Origin: Mesorhizobium shangrilense
GTDB taxonomy: Bacteria > Pseudomonadota > Alphaproteobacteria > Rhizobiales > Rhizobiaceae
Length of the DNA: 64,000 nucleotides
Direction of reading: 5' to 3'
Assembly: GCF_028826155.1 (NCBI RefSeq)
Contig: NZ_JAQGPN010000001.1
Coordinates: forward strand, 2,299,501-2,363,500
The translations under genes and the position numbers were made by a program. Shown here piece after piece: positions 3,001 to 19,532 of this stretch (its first letter is position 1; every line of letters starts with the position of its first letter). The notes under the pieces are model-generated. The model did not search any database and had not been told where the DNA came from. It saw only the letters and a program-made list of their open reading frames with translations.

Positions 3001-4528
3001 GCGAGCGGGCGAAGACGGTAAGGCCGTCCTGTCCGGTATAGGTGGACAGGCCGATGTCGGACACCACGAACCATTGCGTGGCGCGCTGGTCCCAGGTGTC
3101 GCGATTGTCGTTCAGCGGGGCCGCGATCAGGACATAGACGCCGGGCCTGCGCTGCGGCAGCGCCTCATCGATCGGGAAGCTGGTCGTGACTTCCTTGTTG
3201 AGCTCGCTCGCCACCTCGATCTGGCCTTCCCAGACCGGCTCGCCAACCTGGTCCGAGATCGAAGAGATGTCGTAGCCGTCGAGCTGGTTCAGGAACTGGT
3301 AGCCGGAAAGAAGCTGCGCAAGCGAGCGGTCGCCGATGCGATAGAGCTTCAGGTCGGCCGCTTCCATGTTCACGGTGACCAGCGGGATGCCGCGGCGCGC
3401 GGTCGACGGCAGCACGAAGCCGTTGCCCGTGAAGCGCACGGACGCCGCGCGGTCCTGGATATAGATCGACAGCACGACGGGGCTCTCGATCACCTCGCCG
3501 ATCGCTGCCGGCAGGCCGGGGCGGAAGGCGACGCTGTAGTGCTTGCCGTGCTCCAGCCCGCCGACGCAGATCTGCTGGCCCTTGGCTTCGACCGCCTTGG
3601 GCGCCTGATTGTCGACCTTCACGAAGGTCGAGTAGTCGACGCCGGTCTTGACCAGCTCTTCCGAGAACTGGGCGCAGACGCGCGGCGAGGCGTTGTCGGA
3701 ATCGACCGTGTGCTCGACGACGCGAAAACCCTTGCGGGCCTTCAGATCCTCGTAGTCGGCGCGCACGGCGGGGGCGTTCACGAGAAGCAGGCTCGCCTCG
3801 TAGGCCTGGAGCGCCGGGCGGAACTGGTCGCGGCGGTCGAGCCCGACGGCGATCCTGGCCAGCGCTTCGGCGCGAAGGGCAGCAGTGCGCACGAGCAGAT
3901 AGGCGTTGAAGGCAGCCGACGTGGCGTCGCTCCTCAGCGATCCGGTTTCCTGGTCATTGATCGCCTGCACGGCGAGCACGGCGTCGGCAAGGTTCAGCCA
4001 CAGCGCGCCATCGTCCGGCGTGATCGACAGGGCCGCCCTGAACTTCTGCATCGCCGTGCGCGGGTCGCCGGTCAGCATGGCGGATTCGCCAGCGTTCACC
4101 AGCGAGCCCAGGCCCTCCGTCTCCGGCTGACCAGCATTGATGATCACCCTGCGATAGCTCTGGGCCTCGGCCGCCATCCATTCCGGGAAGAAGGCGAGCG
4201 CCGGCGGCGCGCCGATGTCGGCACCGCCTTCGAGGTTGACGATCTTGCCGGCGACGGCGCCGCTAAAGGGCTTTTGCAGGTTGTAGTCGGACTTCAGGAA
4301 GCACCACCTGGCCTTGGTGTTGTAGGTGAAGGCCCGGCATTGGTCGTCTGTCAGACAGGTCGTCTTGCACTGGTCGAGCGAGACGTTGGGCTCGGTCCTG
4401 AGATCGAAGCCGAAATAGTCGGCGTTCTCGGTCGTGACGATCGATCGCGCTTCGCCGGCGGCTCGCGCCACGCCCGCCGAGACCATCACCGTCATTGCCA
4501 ATGCAAGCAGGATACGTGTCGCGCGCAT
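1..4528 (-). CDS. Alpha-2-macroglobulin family protein with N-terminal PAN/Apple domain (partial, runs off left edge)
   Basis: Reading the minus strand from the ATG at 4528 gives one open frame of at least 1509 codons that leaves the window at position 1. Residues 1-23 form a signal peptide ending in GVARA. About residues 27-90 contain a Cys-patterned PAN/Apple module (DQCKTTCLTDDQCRAFTYN, then WCFL). Far downstream, at 395-406, the frame encodes the thioester motif CAEQ in the context YPYGCAEQTTSRALPLL; its Cys is residue 1375. In bacteria these proteins trap invading proteases covalently in the periplasm and are usually paired with a PBP1C-type peptidoglycan synthase, which would lie to the left of this window if present. 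The signal peptide lacks a lipobox, so unlike E. coli YfhM this one looks soluble. Family assignment is firm; the PAN call is by Cys pattern. Confidence 0.93.
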   Translation of the reverse strand, partial: MRATRILLALAMTVMVSAGVARAAGEARSIVTTENADYFGFDLRTEPNVSLDQCKTTCLTDDQCRAFTYNTKARWCFLKSDYNLQKPFSGAVAGKIVNLEGGADIGAPPALAFFPEWMAAEAQSYRRVIINAGQPETEGLGSLVNAGESAMLTGDPRTAMQKFRAALSITPDDGALWLNLADAVLAVQAINDQETGSLRSDATSAAFNAYLLVRTAALRAEALARIAVGLDRRDQFRPALQAYEASLLLVNAPAVRADYEDLKARKGFRVVEHTVDSDNASPRVCAQFSEELVKTGVDYSTFVKVDNQAPKAVEAKGQQICVGGLEHGKHYSVAFRPGLPAAIGEVIESPVVLSIYIQDRAASVRFTGNGFVLPSTARRGIPLVTVNMEAADLKLYRIGDRSLAQLLSGYQFLNQLDGYDISSISDQVGEPVWEGQIEVASELNKEVTTSFPIDEALPQRRPGVYVLIAAPLNDNRDTWDQRATQWFVVSDIGLSTYTGQDGLTVFARSLGSAKPVADAELTLLARNNEVLGTAKTDAEGKAVFQPGLTRGEGGMVPAVLTASRGGEDFVFLDMTKAGFDLSDRGVEGREAPGQLDVYAWTERGIYRVGEEVHVAALARNAEATAVDKLPLTFIFTRPDGVEERRAVSDGEAAGGHAVTLPLSPSAMRGTWTVAIHTDPKQPAVASHMFLVEDFVPDRIEFDLTADRTEIAAGETANMTVDGRFLYGAPAAGLALEGEVTLATSREWDAFKGYSFGLADEQEGDATRTPLADLPLVGDDGKATFPVAIDALPSTTRLVNAKVTVRMRETGGRAVERSADIAIRPQGDMIGIQPDFEDGSVPQGGTAKFSVIAVDSAGQRKAESSLLWTLVKVERQYQWYRSGSSWNYEPITLTEAVANGSIDAATDREAAISVPVDWGRYRLEIESSDPEGPATSYEFDAGWYVSATSTETPDGLEVALDKNAYAPGEVARLKVSPRFAGEMLVTIGAERLLKTITATVPAEGTTIDIPVGSDWGAGAYVTATLFRPGEAEETRMPARAIGLKWLQVDPGARELSVTLSPPEKTVPRQTLSVPVEVKGATAGDNAYAMVAAVDVGILNLTNYRAPDPVDWFFGQRMLGLEIRDVYGRLIDGSLGAAGRLRTGGDGANMTAQGSPPKEKLVAFFSGVVKLDADGKATVDFDLPQFNGTVRVMAVAWTKEAVGKATADVIVRDPIVLTAGLPRFLAPGDSATMRLDISNTDAPDGEYALSIEPAGDLLVGHGEYPATVNLVGGKRQTMTIPLTAVAPGDAGVTIRLANAAGVSVEQQLYLPIRPGALPVTNRMVVDLGPNGRSLRVDGELLSASVLEGASVSLTVSPAAAFDVASTLMTLDRYPYGCAEQTTSRALPLLYVSELAKPFGMPDDPELKGRVQEAIYRVLNYQSSSGSFGLWSPGSGDLWLDAYVTDFLSRAREQNYDVPSNAMLQALSNLQNSISYDIDVQDRGSEIAYALYVLARNKKASVGDLRYYADTQ

Positions 4529-6755: not shown

Positions 6756-7793
6756 ATGCTTACTTTCGTGCTGCGACGTCTCGGGACCATGGTGCTGACC
6801 ATGCTGTGCCTGACGCTCGTCGTCTTTTTCATGATCAATCTGGAGCCGAACCTCCGGAAGCTCTCGATCAGCCAACTCGACATGCGCTCCTCCGACGAGC
6901 ACATCGAGCAGTGGCTGGTGAAGAACGGCTATCGCGACAATTTCTTCGTCCGCTACGGCCGCTGGCTGGGCGTGGTCCAGAAACAGCCAAACACGGATCC
7001 GGCAACCGGCAAGGTCACGCCGCGCTTCTCCTACTGCAATGAGCCGGCGGAACCCTATTATGGCGGCATCCTGCAGGGCGATTTCGGCTGCTCGACCAAG
7101 TTCAAGACGACGGTCGCCAACAAGCTGTTTCCGGCGCTCAAGGCAACCGGCATCCTGATGTTCTGGGTGATGGTGACGATGGTGCCGATCTCGCTCCTGA
7201 TCGGCATACTGGCCGGCATGCGCGAGGGCTCGCGAACCGACCGCAGCCTCTCTGTGGCGTCGATCACGACCACCGCCACGCCCGAATACGTGTCAGGCGT
7301 CATATTCACGGTCATCTTCGCGTCATGGCTCGGCTGGCTGAACGGCTCGGCTGCCTCGGCCACGGGGCAGGGCGTGACGTTCTACAACTTCACCCTGCCG
7401 GTCATGACCATGGCCATCTATGGCGTCGGCTACATCGCCCGCATGACGCGCGCCTCCATGGTCGAGGTGATGACGCAGCAGTACATCCGCACGGCGCGGC
7501 TCAAGGGGCTGTCGTTCAACCAGGTGGTGATCAAGCACGCGCTGCGCAACGCGCTGATCGCGCCGTTCACCGTCATCATGTTGCAGTTCCCCTGGTTGCT
7601 CACCGGCGTGGTCATCGTCGAGACCATGTTCCGCTACCAGGGCTTCGGCTTCACGCTGGTGGAAGCGGCCGGCAACAACGACATCGACCTGCTGCTGGGC
7701 TGTTCGCTCGTATCGGTCTTCGTCGTGCTCTTCACCCAGCTCATCTCCGACGTAGGCTACGCCTATCTCAACCCACGCATCCGCGTGCAGTAG
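6756..7793 (+). CDS. ABC transporter permease, DppB/OppB type
   Basis: Inner-membrane permease of 345 residues, first of the two that form the channel for the family-5 receptor. It starts at ATG 6756 after AGGGGGTAG. The N-terminal membrane anchor (residues about 1-28) is followed by a long periplasmic segment to about residue 125, then five or so further helices. The cytoplasmic EAA loop that contacts the ATPase is visible as YIRTARLKGLSFNQVVIKHA. The periplasmic insertion containing the two Cys of FSYCNEP and GDFGCST is typical of OppB-like proteins, though somewhat long. The gene is followed after 12 bases by the second permease. Confidence 0.92.
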   Translation: MLTFVLRRLGTMVLTMLCLTLVVFFMINLEPNLRKLSISQLDMRSSDEHIEQWLVKNGYRDNFFVRYGRWLGVVQKQPNTDPATGKVTPRFSYCNEPAEPYYGGILQGDFGCSTKFKTTVANKLFPALKATGILMFWVMVTMVPISLLIGILAGMREGSRTDRSLSVASITTTATPEYVSGVIFTVIFASWLGWLNGSAASATGQGVTFYNFTLPVMTMAIYGVGYIARMTRASMVEVMTQQYIRTARLKGLSFNQVVIKHALRNALIAPFTVIMLQFPWLLTGVVIVETMFRYQGFGFTLVEAAGNNDIDLLLGCSLVSVFVVLFTQLISDVGYAYLNPRIRVQ

Positions 7794-15951: not shown

Positions 15952-18555
15952 ATGAAGTCGCATGCGAAGGTCGTGGTCATCGGGGGAGGCGTGGTCGGCT
16001 GCTCCGTGCTGTTCCATCTGGCGCGCGCGGGCTGGACCGACATCGTGCTCCTGGAGCGCGACGAGCTGACGTCGGGCTCCACCTGGCATGCGGCCGGCGG
16101 CATGCACACCATCAACGGCGATCCCAACGTCGCCAAGCTGCAGAAATACACGATCGAGCTGTACAAGGAGATCGAGGAGCTCTCCGGTCAGGCGACGGGC
16201 GTTCACATCACCGGCGGCGTGCTTCTGGCCGCCACTGAGGCGCGCATGGACTGGCTCCGCGGCGTCGTCGCCAAGGGGCGTTATCTCGGCCTCGACCTCG
16301 AAGAAATCTCCGCCGAGGAGGCCCACGCGCTGATGCCGCTGCTCGACCCAAGACAGTTCGTCGGCGCTGTGCGCAATTCCGAGGACGGCCACCTCGATCC
16401 GTCCGGCGTCACCCACGCCTACGCCAAGGCCGCGCGAAAGCTCGGCGCCGAGGTCGAGCGCTTCACCAAGGTCGAGGACATCAAGCGCCTGCCCGATGGC
16501 ACGTGGCAGGTGGTCACCAGCAAGGGCAACGTCGTCGCCGAGCATGTCGTCAACGCCGGGGGGCTGTGGGCGCGCGAGGTGGGCCGCATGGTCGGGCTCG
16601 AACTGCCCGTGCTCGCCATGGAGCACATGTACCTCATTACCGAGGACATGCCGGAGGTGGCCGAAGTCAACCGCACGACCGGCAAGGAGGTCATCCACGC
16701 GGTCGATTTCGACGGCGAGCTCTACCTGCGCCAGGAGCGCGGCGGCATGCTTATGGGCACCTACGAGAAGGCCAACAAGCCGTGGTCGGAATTTTCAACG
16801 CCTTGGAACTTCGGCCACGAGCTGCTGGAGCCGGACATCGACCGCATCGCGCCGTCGCTGGAGGTCGGCTTCCGCCATTTCCCTGCCTTCCAGAACACCG
16901 GCATCAAGCAGATCATCAACGGCCCCTTCACCTTCGCGCCGGACGGCAACCCGCTGGTCGGGCCGGTCCGCGGCCTGCCGGGTTTCTGGGTGGCATGCGG
17001 CGTCATGGCGGGGTTCAGCCAAGGCGGCGGCGTCGGGCTGGCGCTGGCGAACTGGATGATCCACGGCGATCCGGGTTTTGACATCTGGGCCATGGACGTC
17101 GCCCGCTACGGCGACTGGGCGTCGATGCGCTACACCAACGCCAAGGTGCGCGAGAACTATTCGCGCCGCTTCTCGATCCGCTTCCCCAACGAGGAGCTGC
17201 CGGCGGGCAGGGGGCTGAAGACGACGCCGATCTACGACCTGCTCTCGGCCAGGGGCGCGCAATGGGGCGCGGCCTACGGGCTTGAAGTGCCGCTCTGGTA
17301 TGCGCCGGACGGCGTGAAGGACGAATTCTCGTGGCGCCGCTCGACCGACTTCGAGCATGTCGCACGGGAAGTAAAGACGGTCCGCGAAGGCGTTGGCCTG
17401 TCGGAGATTTCCAGCTTCGCCAAGTACCGCGTGAGCGGGTTGGGCGCGACGGCGTGGCTGGACGGGATGCTCACCTGCCGGCTGCCGAAGCCGGGCCGCA
17501 TGACGCTGGCGCCGATGCTCAAGGAAGACGGCAAGCTGATCGGCGATTTTTCGCTGGCGAATGTGGCCGGTGTGGCGCCCGGTTCACCCCCACCCCTAAC
17601 CCCTCCCCTGACCCCTCCCCACAAGGGGGAGGGGGACGCTGGTGTCCCACCGACCTCGCCTTCTGTGGCTTCAAGCGACAAGGGCGCAGAATTCACCTCC
17701 CCCTTGTGGGGAGGGGTAAGGGGTGGGGGTACCCCTACCACTGCTGCCACCGAATGGTACATCTTCGGATCCGGCATCGCCGAGCAATTCCACATTCGCT
17801 GGTTCGAGAAGCATCTCCCTGCGGATGGTTCGGTCGTCGTCGAGGCGCTGGGGACAAAACTCACCGGCCTTTCCATCGCCGGGCCAAGGGCGCGCGACCT
17901 GCTTGCCAGGGTCGTCCGGGAAGACGTCTCCACTGCGGCGTTTCCGTTCATGGCGATCAGGCGCATGGACGTCGGCATGGCGCCCTGCATCGTCGGCCGC
18001 GTTAGCTACACCGGCGATCTTGGTTATGAGATCTGGGTCGAGCCGGAATACCAGCGCCATGTGTTCCGCACGCTGATGGAGGCGGGCGAGGAGTTCGGCA
18101 TCGACCTGTTCGGCGGCCGGGCCCTCAACGCACTGCGGCTGGAAAAGAACTACGGCTCCTGGGCGCGCGAGTACCGGCCCATCTACGGCCCGCTCGAAGC
18201 CGGCCTCGACCGCTTCGTCGCCTATGGGAAAGACGCGGACTTCATCGGCAAGGCAGCCGCGCTGAAGGAGCGCGACAGTGGCGGCAAGCTCCGGCTGCGC
18301 AGCTTCCTGGTCGAGACCGATGACGCCGACGTCATCGGCGACGAGGCGATCTGCCACGACGGGCAGGTGCACGGCTGGGTGACGTCCGGCGGCTACGCGC
18401 ACGGCTCGCGCGTTTCGGTCGCGATGGGATACGTGCCGAAGGAGATCGCCGACGCGACCGGCGGCTTCGAGATCGAACTGCTCGGCAGACGCTATCCCGC
18501 GCGCACACAGCGTGAAGCGCTGTTTGATGCCGATCAGAGGCGGTTGCGGGGGTGA
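15952..18555 (+). CDS. FAD-dependent oxidoreductase/GcvT-domain protein (dimethylglycine/sarcosine dehydrogenase-like) with an in-frame palindromic insertion
   Basis: An 867-residue two-part enzyme. Residues about 5-380 are a DAO-type FAD domain, with dinucleotide motif VVIGGGVVGCSVLFHLA and GSTWHAAGGMHT, where the flavin-linked His is expected. Residues about 420-867 are GcvT-like aminomethyl/folate-binding domains (AGLDRFVAYGKDADFIGKAA, YARTQREALFD-like end). Relatives oxidatively demethylate dimethylglycine or sarcosine and pass the one-carbon unit to tetrahydrofolate. It follows the MttB-family gene, which fits stepwise removal of methyl groups from a methylated amine. Residues about 545-598 are Pro/Gly-rich and unlike the family; they are encoded by a DNA palindrome (17588-17731) inserted between IGDFSLANVAG and EWYIFGSGIAEQ. 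The frame is kept, so the protein may still be made. Function is otherwise well supported. Confidence 0.92.
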   Translation: MKSHAKVVVIGGGVVGCSVLFHLARAGWTDIVLLERDELTSGSTWHAAGGMHTINGDPNVAKLQKYTIELYKEIEELSGQATGVHITGGVLLAATEARMDWLRGVVAKGRYLGLDLEEISAEEAHALMPLLDPRQFVGAVRNSEDGHLDPSGVTHAYAKAARKLGAEVERFTKVEDIKRLPDGTWQVVTSKGNVVAEHVVNAGGLWAREVGRMVGLELPVLAMEHMYLITEDMPEVAEVNRTTGKEVIHAVDFDGELYLRQERGGMLMGTYEKANKPWSEFSTPWNFGHELLEPDIDRIAPSLEVGFRHFPAFQNTGIKQIINGPFTFAPDGNPLVGPVRGLPGFWVACGVMAGFSQGGGVGLALANWMIHGDPGFDIWAMDVARYGDWASMRYTNAKVRENYSRRFSIRFPNEELPAGRGLKTTPIYDLLSARGAQWGAAYGLEVPLWYAPDGVKDEFSWRRSTDFEHVAREVKTVREGVGLSEISSFAKYRVSGLGATAWLDGMLTCRLPKPGRMTLAPMLKEDGKLIGDFSLANVAGVAPGSPPPLTPPLTPPHKGEGDAGVPPTSPSVASSDKGAEFTSPLWGGVRGGGTPTTAATEWYIFGSGIAEQFHIRWFEKHLPADGSVVVEALGTKLTGLSIAGPRARDLLARVVREDVSTAAFPFMAIRRMDVGMAPCIVGRVSYTGDLGYEIWVEPEYQRHVFRTLMEAGEEFGIDLFGGRALNALRLEKNYGSWAREYRPIYGPLEAGLDRFVAYGKDADFIGKAAALKERDSGGKLRLRSFLVETDDADVIGDEAICHDGQVHGWVTSGGYAHGSRVSVAMGYVPKEIADATGGFEIELLGRRYPARTQREALFDADQRRLRG
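17588..17731. repeat. Palindromic element inserted inside a coding region
   Basis: Left arm from 17588 (ACCCCTAACCCCTCCCC, then ACCCCTCCCCACAAGGGGGA) is the near-perfect reverse complement of the right arm, which ends near 17731 (CTCCCCCTTGTGGGGAGGGG, then TAAGGGGTGGGGG). A 54-base loop lies between them (about 17637-17690), and the left arm has an extra 12-base partial duplication. The element contains no stop in the frame used by the host gene and adds about 54 residues. Its arms resemble a common short intergenic palindrome in rhizobial genomes, which in translation reads PPLTPPHKGEG or SPLWGGVRGGG. Confidence 0.9.
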
Positions 18556-18696
18556 GGTAGGCGACCAGTCCTGGCAGGCACATTGCCGATTCATTCCAAT
18601 GTGTTAGGCGCTTGTCCGCTGCGTCGTGGTATGGGGTCGGCTCTTACTGTTGGGTGGGCTGCCGGGATGGCACGGCGTGGGAGTTCGCATTGAACT

Positions 18697-18933
18697 GTTG
18701 GGCGCTTGTCCGCCACGTCACGGCATGGGTCCTAGGGTCGCGCTCCGCTTCGCTGCGCTTGCCCTAGGATGACGAAGGTTGGGATGTCGCTGCCAACCAC
18801 GTCGCTGCCAACCGCCAACCTCGGTGATTGGCGCTGCGTCCTCTCCCCTCTTCGTCATCCTAGGGCGAAGTCGAGCAAAGCGAAGGCGGAGACCCTAGGA
18901 CCCATGCCGTGACGTGGCGGATAGGCGCCCAAC
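18697..18933. repeat. Long inverted pair of intergenic palindromic repeats
   Basis: Two copies of about 80 bases face each other: 18697-18777 (GTTGGGCGCTTGTCCGCCAC, then GTCACGGCATGGGTCCTAGG, ending CCCTAGGATGACGAAG) and 18850-18933, its inverse. Each copy is itself palindromic through CCTAGGGTC and CCCTAGGATGAC. A degenerate partial third copy of the outer segment begins near 18605. They belong to the same family as the copies at 15691-15850. The pair could form a long cruciform or transcript hairpin after the flavoenzyme gene. Confidence 0.85.
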
Positions 18934-19532
18934 GACGCAATGCTGGACCCATGCCGCAGCGCGGCGGTCACGCCAACGGTGCAACTCCGGTCAGTCTGAA
19001 AAGCGCTCCACATCGCCCCCAATTACGCGGAAACAGGGGAGAGTGGTGAGAATAAGGCCCGCTCCGTCACAAAATTCTCTTTGAGATGTCAGCGGCTTAC
19101 CAAAAGGCGATCCACTTCATTCTCCCGCTGTCCTCCTCACCTGTCTCGAGCAGGCCTATGATCCTCATCGGCAGCTTCCTGGTGGGAACGTGTGCGCAAC
19201 CGGCTATCCAGGCCGGAGCAGGTGAGCGGGATGCTCCGGCCCTGTGCTGGCGCCGCGTGCTCGCGTCCTTTGCCTTGGCAGATCAGGGGCAAGGCGATGG
19301 GCCGGTAGCCAGCCGGGGAGAAGACGCCGGCGGTGCATGGCAGCGCGTCGACTTCAGAAAATTGACTGGACGACGCTGCCATGCGCCGCCTCCCACACCC
19401 CGGCTTCGGAACGAGGCGCGGGAACTGCCATGGGAGAGGGAAGACTGGCGCGAACGCACAAAAGTAACCGTCCTCGGTTTCCGCTGATGCCCGCAGGTAG
19501 GCAACGACAATTCTCGCACACCTCGTCAAAAT
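18934..19532. other. Gene-free structured region upstream of preT
   Basis: I find no convincing gene between the repeats and the preT promoter; small frames here lack ribosome sites and family resemblance. Three stem-capable inverted repeats are present: GGCCGGAGCA/TGCTCCGGCC (19211-19220 and 19232-19241), GCCTTG/CAAGGC (19272-19277 and 19290-19295) and GCATGGCAGCG/CGCTGCCATGC (19336-19346 and 19375-19385). The region could encode a structured RNA, a long leader, or be a decayed element. Confidence 0.35.

Follow-up and report, generated by a model that had tools for sequence, protein, structure and literature searches.

A palindromic repeat carried in frame in a loop of a dimethylglycine-dehydrogenase-like enzyme of Mesorhizobium relatives

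A palindromic element lies in frame within an enzyme gene

We studied a gene for a dimethylglycine-dehydrogenase-like enzyme of Mesorhizobium shangrilense that contains a palindromic repeat. The gene lies in a 64,000-nucleotide stretch of contig NZ_JAQGPN010000001.1 (positions 2,299,501 to 2,363,500), the whole of which is called the window here. Its features, in window coordinates, are as follows.

15952..18555, plus strand: dimethylglycine-dehydrogenase-like enzyme, 867 amino acids (aa); open reading frame (ORF), Pfam DAO, FAO_M, GCV_T and GCV_T_C
17572..17748, plus strand: extra segment, residues 541-599, missing from 808-aa orthologues; alignments and predicted model
17586..17731, plus strand: palindromic element, two units resembling repetitive extragenic palindromes (REPs), head to head with a spacer between; inverted repeats, fold and homologous copies elsewhere
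17586..17638, minus strand: left unit (equal to the right unit when read on this strand), with an internal 12-nt near-duplication
17694..17731, plus strand: right unit, which translates as SPLWGGVRGGG

The element contains no stop and is in frame within the ORF at 15952-18555, as had been proposed from the sequence alone (the original prediction) for a palindrome inside a FAD/GcvT enzyme. That prediction also described near-perfect arms of about 40 bases around a 54-base loop, which is correct as to location and only roughly right as to anatomy. The outer arms (17586-17608 and 17708-17730) are 96% complementary, the longer arms (17597-17641 and 17687-17731) are 84% complementary and stand 45 nt apart, and the near-duplication within the left arm pairs 17588-17599 with 17600-17611. 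RNA from 17580-17740 has a computed folding energy of -104.2 kcal/mol. Shuffling that preserves dinucleotides gave a mean of -72.0 (200 shuffles; z -7.5), and no shuffle reached so low a value. Because the element is a palindrome, its frame is almost identical on both strands, and a minus-strand ORF across it likewise reads PPPLTPPHKGE...SPLWGGVRGG.

Relatives have a short loop at the same position

The solved structures that best match the 867-aa enzyme, 4p9s, 4pab and 5l46, are all dimethylglycine dehydrogenases. In 4p9s and 5l46, nine residues separate the two segments that align with the flanks of the insert. We aligned the window's enzyme with the products of 71 of 80 named loci (72 sequences); the nine loci dropped had translations shorter than 700 aa, L106 being cut by a contig end and the other eight giving 236 aa. 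In 66 of the 72 sequences, which are 805-816 aa long, the loop is a brief turn between GDFTLANLG and EWxIxGSG, and all flagged inserts of at least 12 residues fall in this one loop. The alignments thus define the insertion, and the flanking segments, predicted to be contiguous in relatives, are adjacent or almost so in most. The predicted addition of about 54 residues holds by the alignment gap criterion (54) and becomes 59 when counted against 808-aa orthologues.

Elements of the same family occupy this loop, all in one frame, in five of the 72 sequences. Besides the window, the carriers are L057 (genome G003, of the same genus as the window), L062 (the Mesorhizobium metagenome-assembled genome (MAG) ACE_PRO30), L074 (Aliihoeflea sp. 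2WW) and L080 (the Mesorhizobium MAG C3_concoct.bin.48), in which the insert is composite. We found no distant genus with the same segment as an ordinary loop; the other sequences have a short loop, a recognizable element or, in L081, an unrelated insert. The L081 protein (Mesorhizobium sp. YM1C-6-2) carries more than 30 aa in this loop, after residue 540, and its insert lacks palindromic arms.

In the predicted model, residues 541-599 have a predicted local distance difference test (pLDDT) score below 50 and lie between strands 529-537 and 602-606. The insert is therein predicted to form the tip of a β-hairpin in the GcvT domain, and the inserted Pro/Gly-rich peptide is probably disordered and outside the fold.

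The repeated use of this loop could have a simple cause. A hypervariable surface loop that merely tolerates insertions, hit by an element without site preference, is a fairly probable account, since loop length also varies where there is no element (L025, L026, L056, L072, many 33-residue Mesorhizobium loops and the L081 insert). Nothing decisive speaks against it, and it is compatible with the explanation developed below, bearing only on why this loop was hit repeatedly.

The insert-bearing gene is under constraint

The ratio of nonsynonymous to synonymous substitution rates (dN/dS) for the window's gene is 0.145 against L057, 0.128 against L025 and 0.132 against L056. The pairs L062/L101 and L074/L111 give 0.120 and 0.124, and four pairs lacking the element or any other insert give 0.08-0.13. 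At 306 columns that are invariant in 68 non-carriers, the window, L062 and L074 show no deviation, and L057 and L080 show one each. The insert-bearing gene thus looks alive, and on these sequence comparisons its product is probably an active enzyme.

In favor of a dead gene or a misassembled palindrome, a paralogue of the enzyme exists in the window's genome, and palindromes can disturb assembly. Nevertheless, we regard a pseudogene or assembly artefact as very improbable, given same-loop inserts in five separate assemblies, intact frames, zero or one deviation at the 306 columns and dN/dS values close to those of non-carriers (about 0.13 for the window).

The element belongs to a dispersed repeat family

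The original prediction called for a count of arm copies elsewhere in the genome. In the window's genome BLAST located 39 matches of the element, spread over about 17 places, which makes it a member of a repeat family rather than a chance palindrome. Across the order, matches occur in at least 47 of 199 sampled genomes and in at least 28 of 96 genera; these are lower bounds because at most four candidates per genome were scored. The same-genus genome G002 gave no element match.

We collected 98 element clusters from nine genomes, drawn from the strongest BLAST hits with their flanks and so not a random sample. They comprise 64 left-right pairs, 10 right-left pairs, 20 single units and 4 others. 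Short palindromic units placed head to head are the general mark of REP dimers, and the family has this form. The consensus over 183 units, CCCTCCCC-CTTGT-GGGGAGGG, fits the 8-9 bp stem and 4-5 nt loop of CGTC REPs. These REPs, as excerpts of Di Nocera et al. 2013 (PMC3733652) describe them, are small stem-loops, mostly head-to-head dimers, with intragenic copies of which some lie in linkers or loops. The present units differ from them in two respects. The stem starts with C/G instead of A/T (C at stem positions 1 and 2 in 175 and 179 of the 183 units), and the CCA-type unpaired tail is replaced by a G-rich segment after the stem (consensus TaAGGGGTGGGGGTA). The CGTC tag (or TGTC/CCTC) that CGTC REPs bear at one end is not clear here (C 67, G 93, T 101 and C 138 of 183 at the four positions; at least 21 of the 183 units match CGTC exactly). 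GTAG is absent from both ends of the 183-unit consensus. Since defining features of both families are missing, we dropped an assignment to CGTC or GTAG REPs.

Elements within genes keep the reading frame

Sixteen of the 98 clusters have coding-like flanks on one strand, as judged by codon-usage cut-offs of our own choosing (L018 and L192 pass a looser filter only), and 82 lack coding on both flanks. Phase is kept across the element in all 16, where 1 in 3 would be expected for each. In two of these cases (L010 at 7727 and L196 at 392) the element interrupts the open frame on that strand, and the flanks may belong to neighboring genes; leaving them out, 14 of 14 are in phase, two of them in one gene (L224).

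The phase used within genes is also uniform. Each of the 16 host ORFs that have a right-hand unit reads it in one phase (PSPLWGG), while XdhC and GNAT have a left-hand unit only, read in the phase LPTRGR. Among 56 non-coding left-right dimers, the PSPLWGG phase accounts for 86 of 190 open frames (45%). Ten host families would share it by chance about 4 times in 10,000, if independent and measured against this background of left-right dimers only (4 of the 10 families hold right-left or single units). The 18 host ORFs contain no internal stop; they had been picked for being open, and phase played no part in the choice of the 16.

The very stable predicted hairpin raises the question of whether the insert reaches the mature product. 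It might be excised from the transcript or skipped during translation, like the byp elements, which a passage of PMC6649704 describes as bypassed in a yeast mitochondrion. Neither process depends on an open frame, so the 16 of 16 phase-keeping cases and the 18 stop-free host ORFs make it scarcely credible, and the insert is expected to be translated.

Other conserved proteins carry the element or related palindromes

Counting the present enzyme, 12 conserved protein families (assigned by Pfam and NCBIfam) in nine genomes have elements of the family or related palindromes in frame. The further hosts are a lipoyl E2 acyltransferase, XdhC, an acyl-CoA synthetase and an amidase in the window's genome, imidazolonepropionase HutI and CobN in G001, HrpB in G061 and G062, a FAD oxidoreductase in G063 and G066 (the inserts lie at corresponding positions), and PolA, an MmeI-type methylase and GNAT in G061. 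We term the elements of XdhC, acyl-CoA synthetase, amidase, methylase and GNAT related palindromes because they have the core in common and their tails differ. Those of the window's genome, all in frame, are:

L018:1952-3265: related palindrome with different tails, XdhC
L020:1729-4461: related palindrome with different tails, acyl-CoA synthetase
L021:1772-3106: related palindrome with different tails, amidase

Orthologue comparison covered the present enzyme, HutI, HrpB and PolA. G033 and G066 give identical matches and seem to be one genome, so one of them was used for HutI, HrpB and PolA. In HutI the element is present in 1 of 16 rows and the other 15 have a tight link. G061 and G034, the latter with an insert of a related type, both carry their PolA insert in a linker that is variable in all 15 rows. 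A distant solved relative of the amidase aligns on both sides of its insert.

HrpB has a short loop in 10 of 16 rows and a long one in six. The long loops of G061 and G062 hold this element family, and the inserts of G064, G065 and G068 are of other kinds and strongly self-complementary, with fold z values of -5 to -12 relative to mononucleotide shuffles. In the window's own genome the HrpB loop is long, with a similar peptide make-up and no unusual fold now (z -1.1). The HrpB of sister genome G067 is 92% identical to that of G062 and has a short loop. The long loops at the same place outside G061 and G062 are:

L237 (G064): long HrpB loop
L238 (G000, the window's genome): long HrpB loop
L239 (G068): long HrpB loop
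L246 (G065): long HrpB loop

In the HrpB gene of G062 (Aliihoeflea), a 223-nt segment with an element arm in it is directly repeated at 98% identity (L233:3091-3313 and 3478-3700); the duplication is either genuine or produced by the assembly. Two ORFs open through an element, L206 and L219, were discarded, as neither had a Pfam match. At L196:1034-2698 an element lies between Polyketide_cyc2 and alcohol-dehydrogenase domains in one open frame; we did not count it as an insertion, and it may reflect a fusion of genes through read-through or simply two adjacent genes.

The loop was probably entered more than once

A tree of 71 rows was built by a quick search with the loop excluded, six orthologues from other genomes being added and seven distant ones omitted. 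On it the five carriers require five changes, with non-carriers lying between them, and the sisters of L062 and L074 (L101 and L111) have short loops. The in-gene units were also compared with 153 units elsewhere in the nine genomes. Seven of the nine in-gene units find their best matches in their own genome and nowhere else; among them, the two units of L062, the two of L057 and one of L074 match there exactly (38/38). The true assignment of units to genomes ranks 1 of 120 permutations. Repeated insertion, or homogenisation, is therefore favored.

Gene conversion is the main rival to independent entry. A single ancient insertion could have passed down by vertical descent, with many losses, while gene conversion homogenised its arms. 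All five carriers agree in loop and frame, the arms pair perfectly or almost perfectly in L057 and L062 and differ between species in a matched fashion, as homogenisation would produce, and the window and L057, being of one genus, possibly reflect one event. Such a history would have to accommodate the five changes on the tree, the short-looped sisters of L062 and L074 and spacers that vary in length and sequence among carriers. We consider it unlikely, and several of the loop entries are likely independent on the sequence evidence.

Taken as a whole, our preferred explanation, which we hold to be highly probable, is that elements of this family became fixed in frame in the loop of a working enzyme, copied from each genome's own pool, repeatedly and in different lineages. 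A non-autonomous REP-like element would have been copied out of the pool into DNA for the hairpin tip of the folate-binding (GcvT) domain. The inserted copy would have preserved the reading frame and been read in the frame typical of its family within genes; out-of-frame insertions were presumably purged by selection. We propose that the enzyme stayed under selection because the peptide is disordered and outside the fold. Separate lineages would have acquired elements of the family at this loop on several occasions, and loops or linkers of other enzymes would have been entered too.

Several observations weigh against this explanation. The predicted model is weak overall (mean pLDDT 63.9, predicted template modeling score 0.55), the GcvT part being better. 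The paralogue in the window's genome is 68% identical and could lessen the need for the insert-bearing copy, and L080 has higher dN/dS values of 0.19 and 0.23. The window/L057/L025 fork is unsettled on the loop-free tree. The window's two units are not best matched by their own genome (one is a tie between G000 and G003, the other best matches G003), so the window and L057 may share one event. Neither clean edges nor a target-site duplication could be resolved in the four gene comparisons. Finally, Y1 transposase (PF01797) had no match in the window's genome, in a search whose control was positive in 5 of 14 named genomes.

A more far-reaching proposal, which we put forward tentatively as a possibility, is that the repeat family is a translatable selfish element with a symmetric Pro/Gly-rich frame (PPHKGE...SPLWGG is encoded on both strands of the window's element). 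It would have colonized loops and linkers of many core enzymes throughout the Mesorhizobium relatives, re-entered the same loops (in the present enzyme and HrpB) and formed a standing natural source of new protein segments in free-living bacteria.

Comparison with known palindromic repeats

RIME of Rhizobium is a palindromic mosaic repeat found between rhizobial genes, which the present family resembles by description only. A search for palindromic repeats together with Mesorhizobium, Rhizobium or rhizobia found no in-frame insertions of this kind in titles or abstract openings of the mainly open literature, and the element's peptide strings matched only two unrelated papers in open PMC text. 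In-frame palindromic elements are known from Rickettsia and other bacteria; this family, its repeated use of one loop and its frame preference appear undescribed in the literature searched.

A close parallel is with the Rickettsia palindromic elements (RPE), which excerpts of four papers place in frame in protein genes (PMC2229807, PMC10969869, PMC6649704, PMC3733652). Both are palindromes of about 100-150 bp that occupy intergenic sites and also conserved protein genes, where they are in frame and add a peptide; PolA-type and other core genes also host such repeats, according to a passage of PMC3733652. The original prediction had suggested this parallel from one enzyme, and it now extends to several cases, in 12 families and nine genomes, in addition to copies outside coding sequence. 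Compared by description only, the present family differs in residing in Mesorhizobium relatives with genomes of 4-6.4 Mb and in having entered one loop repeatedly across genera.

In the excerpts used here, PMC3733652 describes CGTC REPs as lacking a dedicated transposase and reports REPs at about the same recB site in two Xanthomonas species; its text does not name Mesorhizobium. ERIC/RU-1 of enterobacteria, NEMIS of Neisseria and QMITE of Coxiella are likewise small mobile repeats in frame in some ORFs, on passages of PMC2229807 and PMC5896051, and differ in being of the miniature inverted-repeat transposable element type and from other bacteria, a likeness again by description only. Nematomorpha mitochondrial genes contain long inverted repeats in coding sequence with both arms translated (PMC6649704, in excerpt); the arms there encode conserved residues, whereas here an extra loop is added.

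Fixation of in-frame palindromes is best known from Rickettsia and is apparently frequent here in free-living relatives of Mesorhizobium, hosts that can be cultured and whose enzymes can be assayed. Repeated entry into one loop that stays short in close relatives offers a natural test of where proteins can take up 30-60 extra residues, and it bears on the question of whether new protein segments arise from selfish repeats.

Other features of the window

A second large inverted repeat lies downstream of the gene at 18687-18943, with 53-nt arms that are 89% complementary and 151 nt apart; it contains CGTCATCCTAGGGCG-type sequence and by eye resembles CGTC-type REPs. On the minus strand, positions 7370-7548 match the Rfam family Cis52_sRNA (RF02647) with 74.6 bits, where the gathering score is 56.
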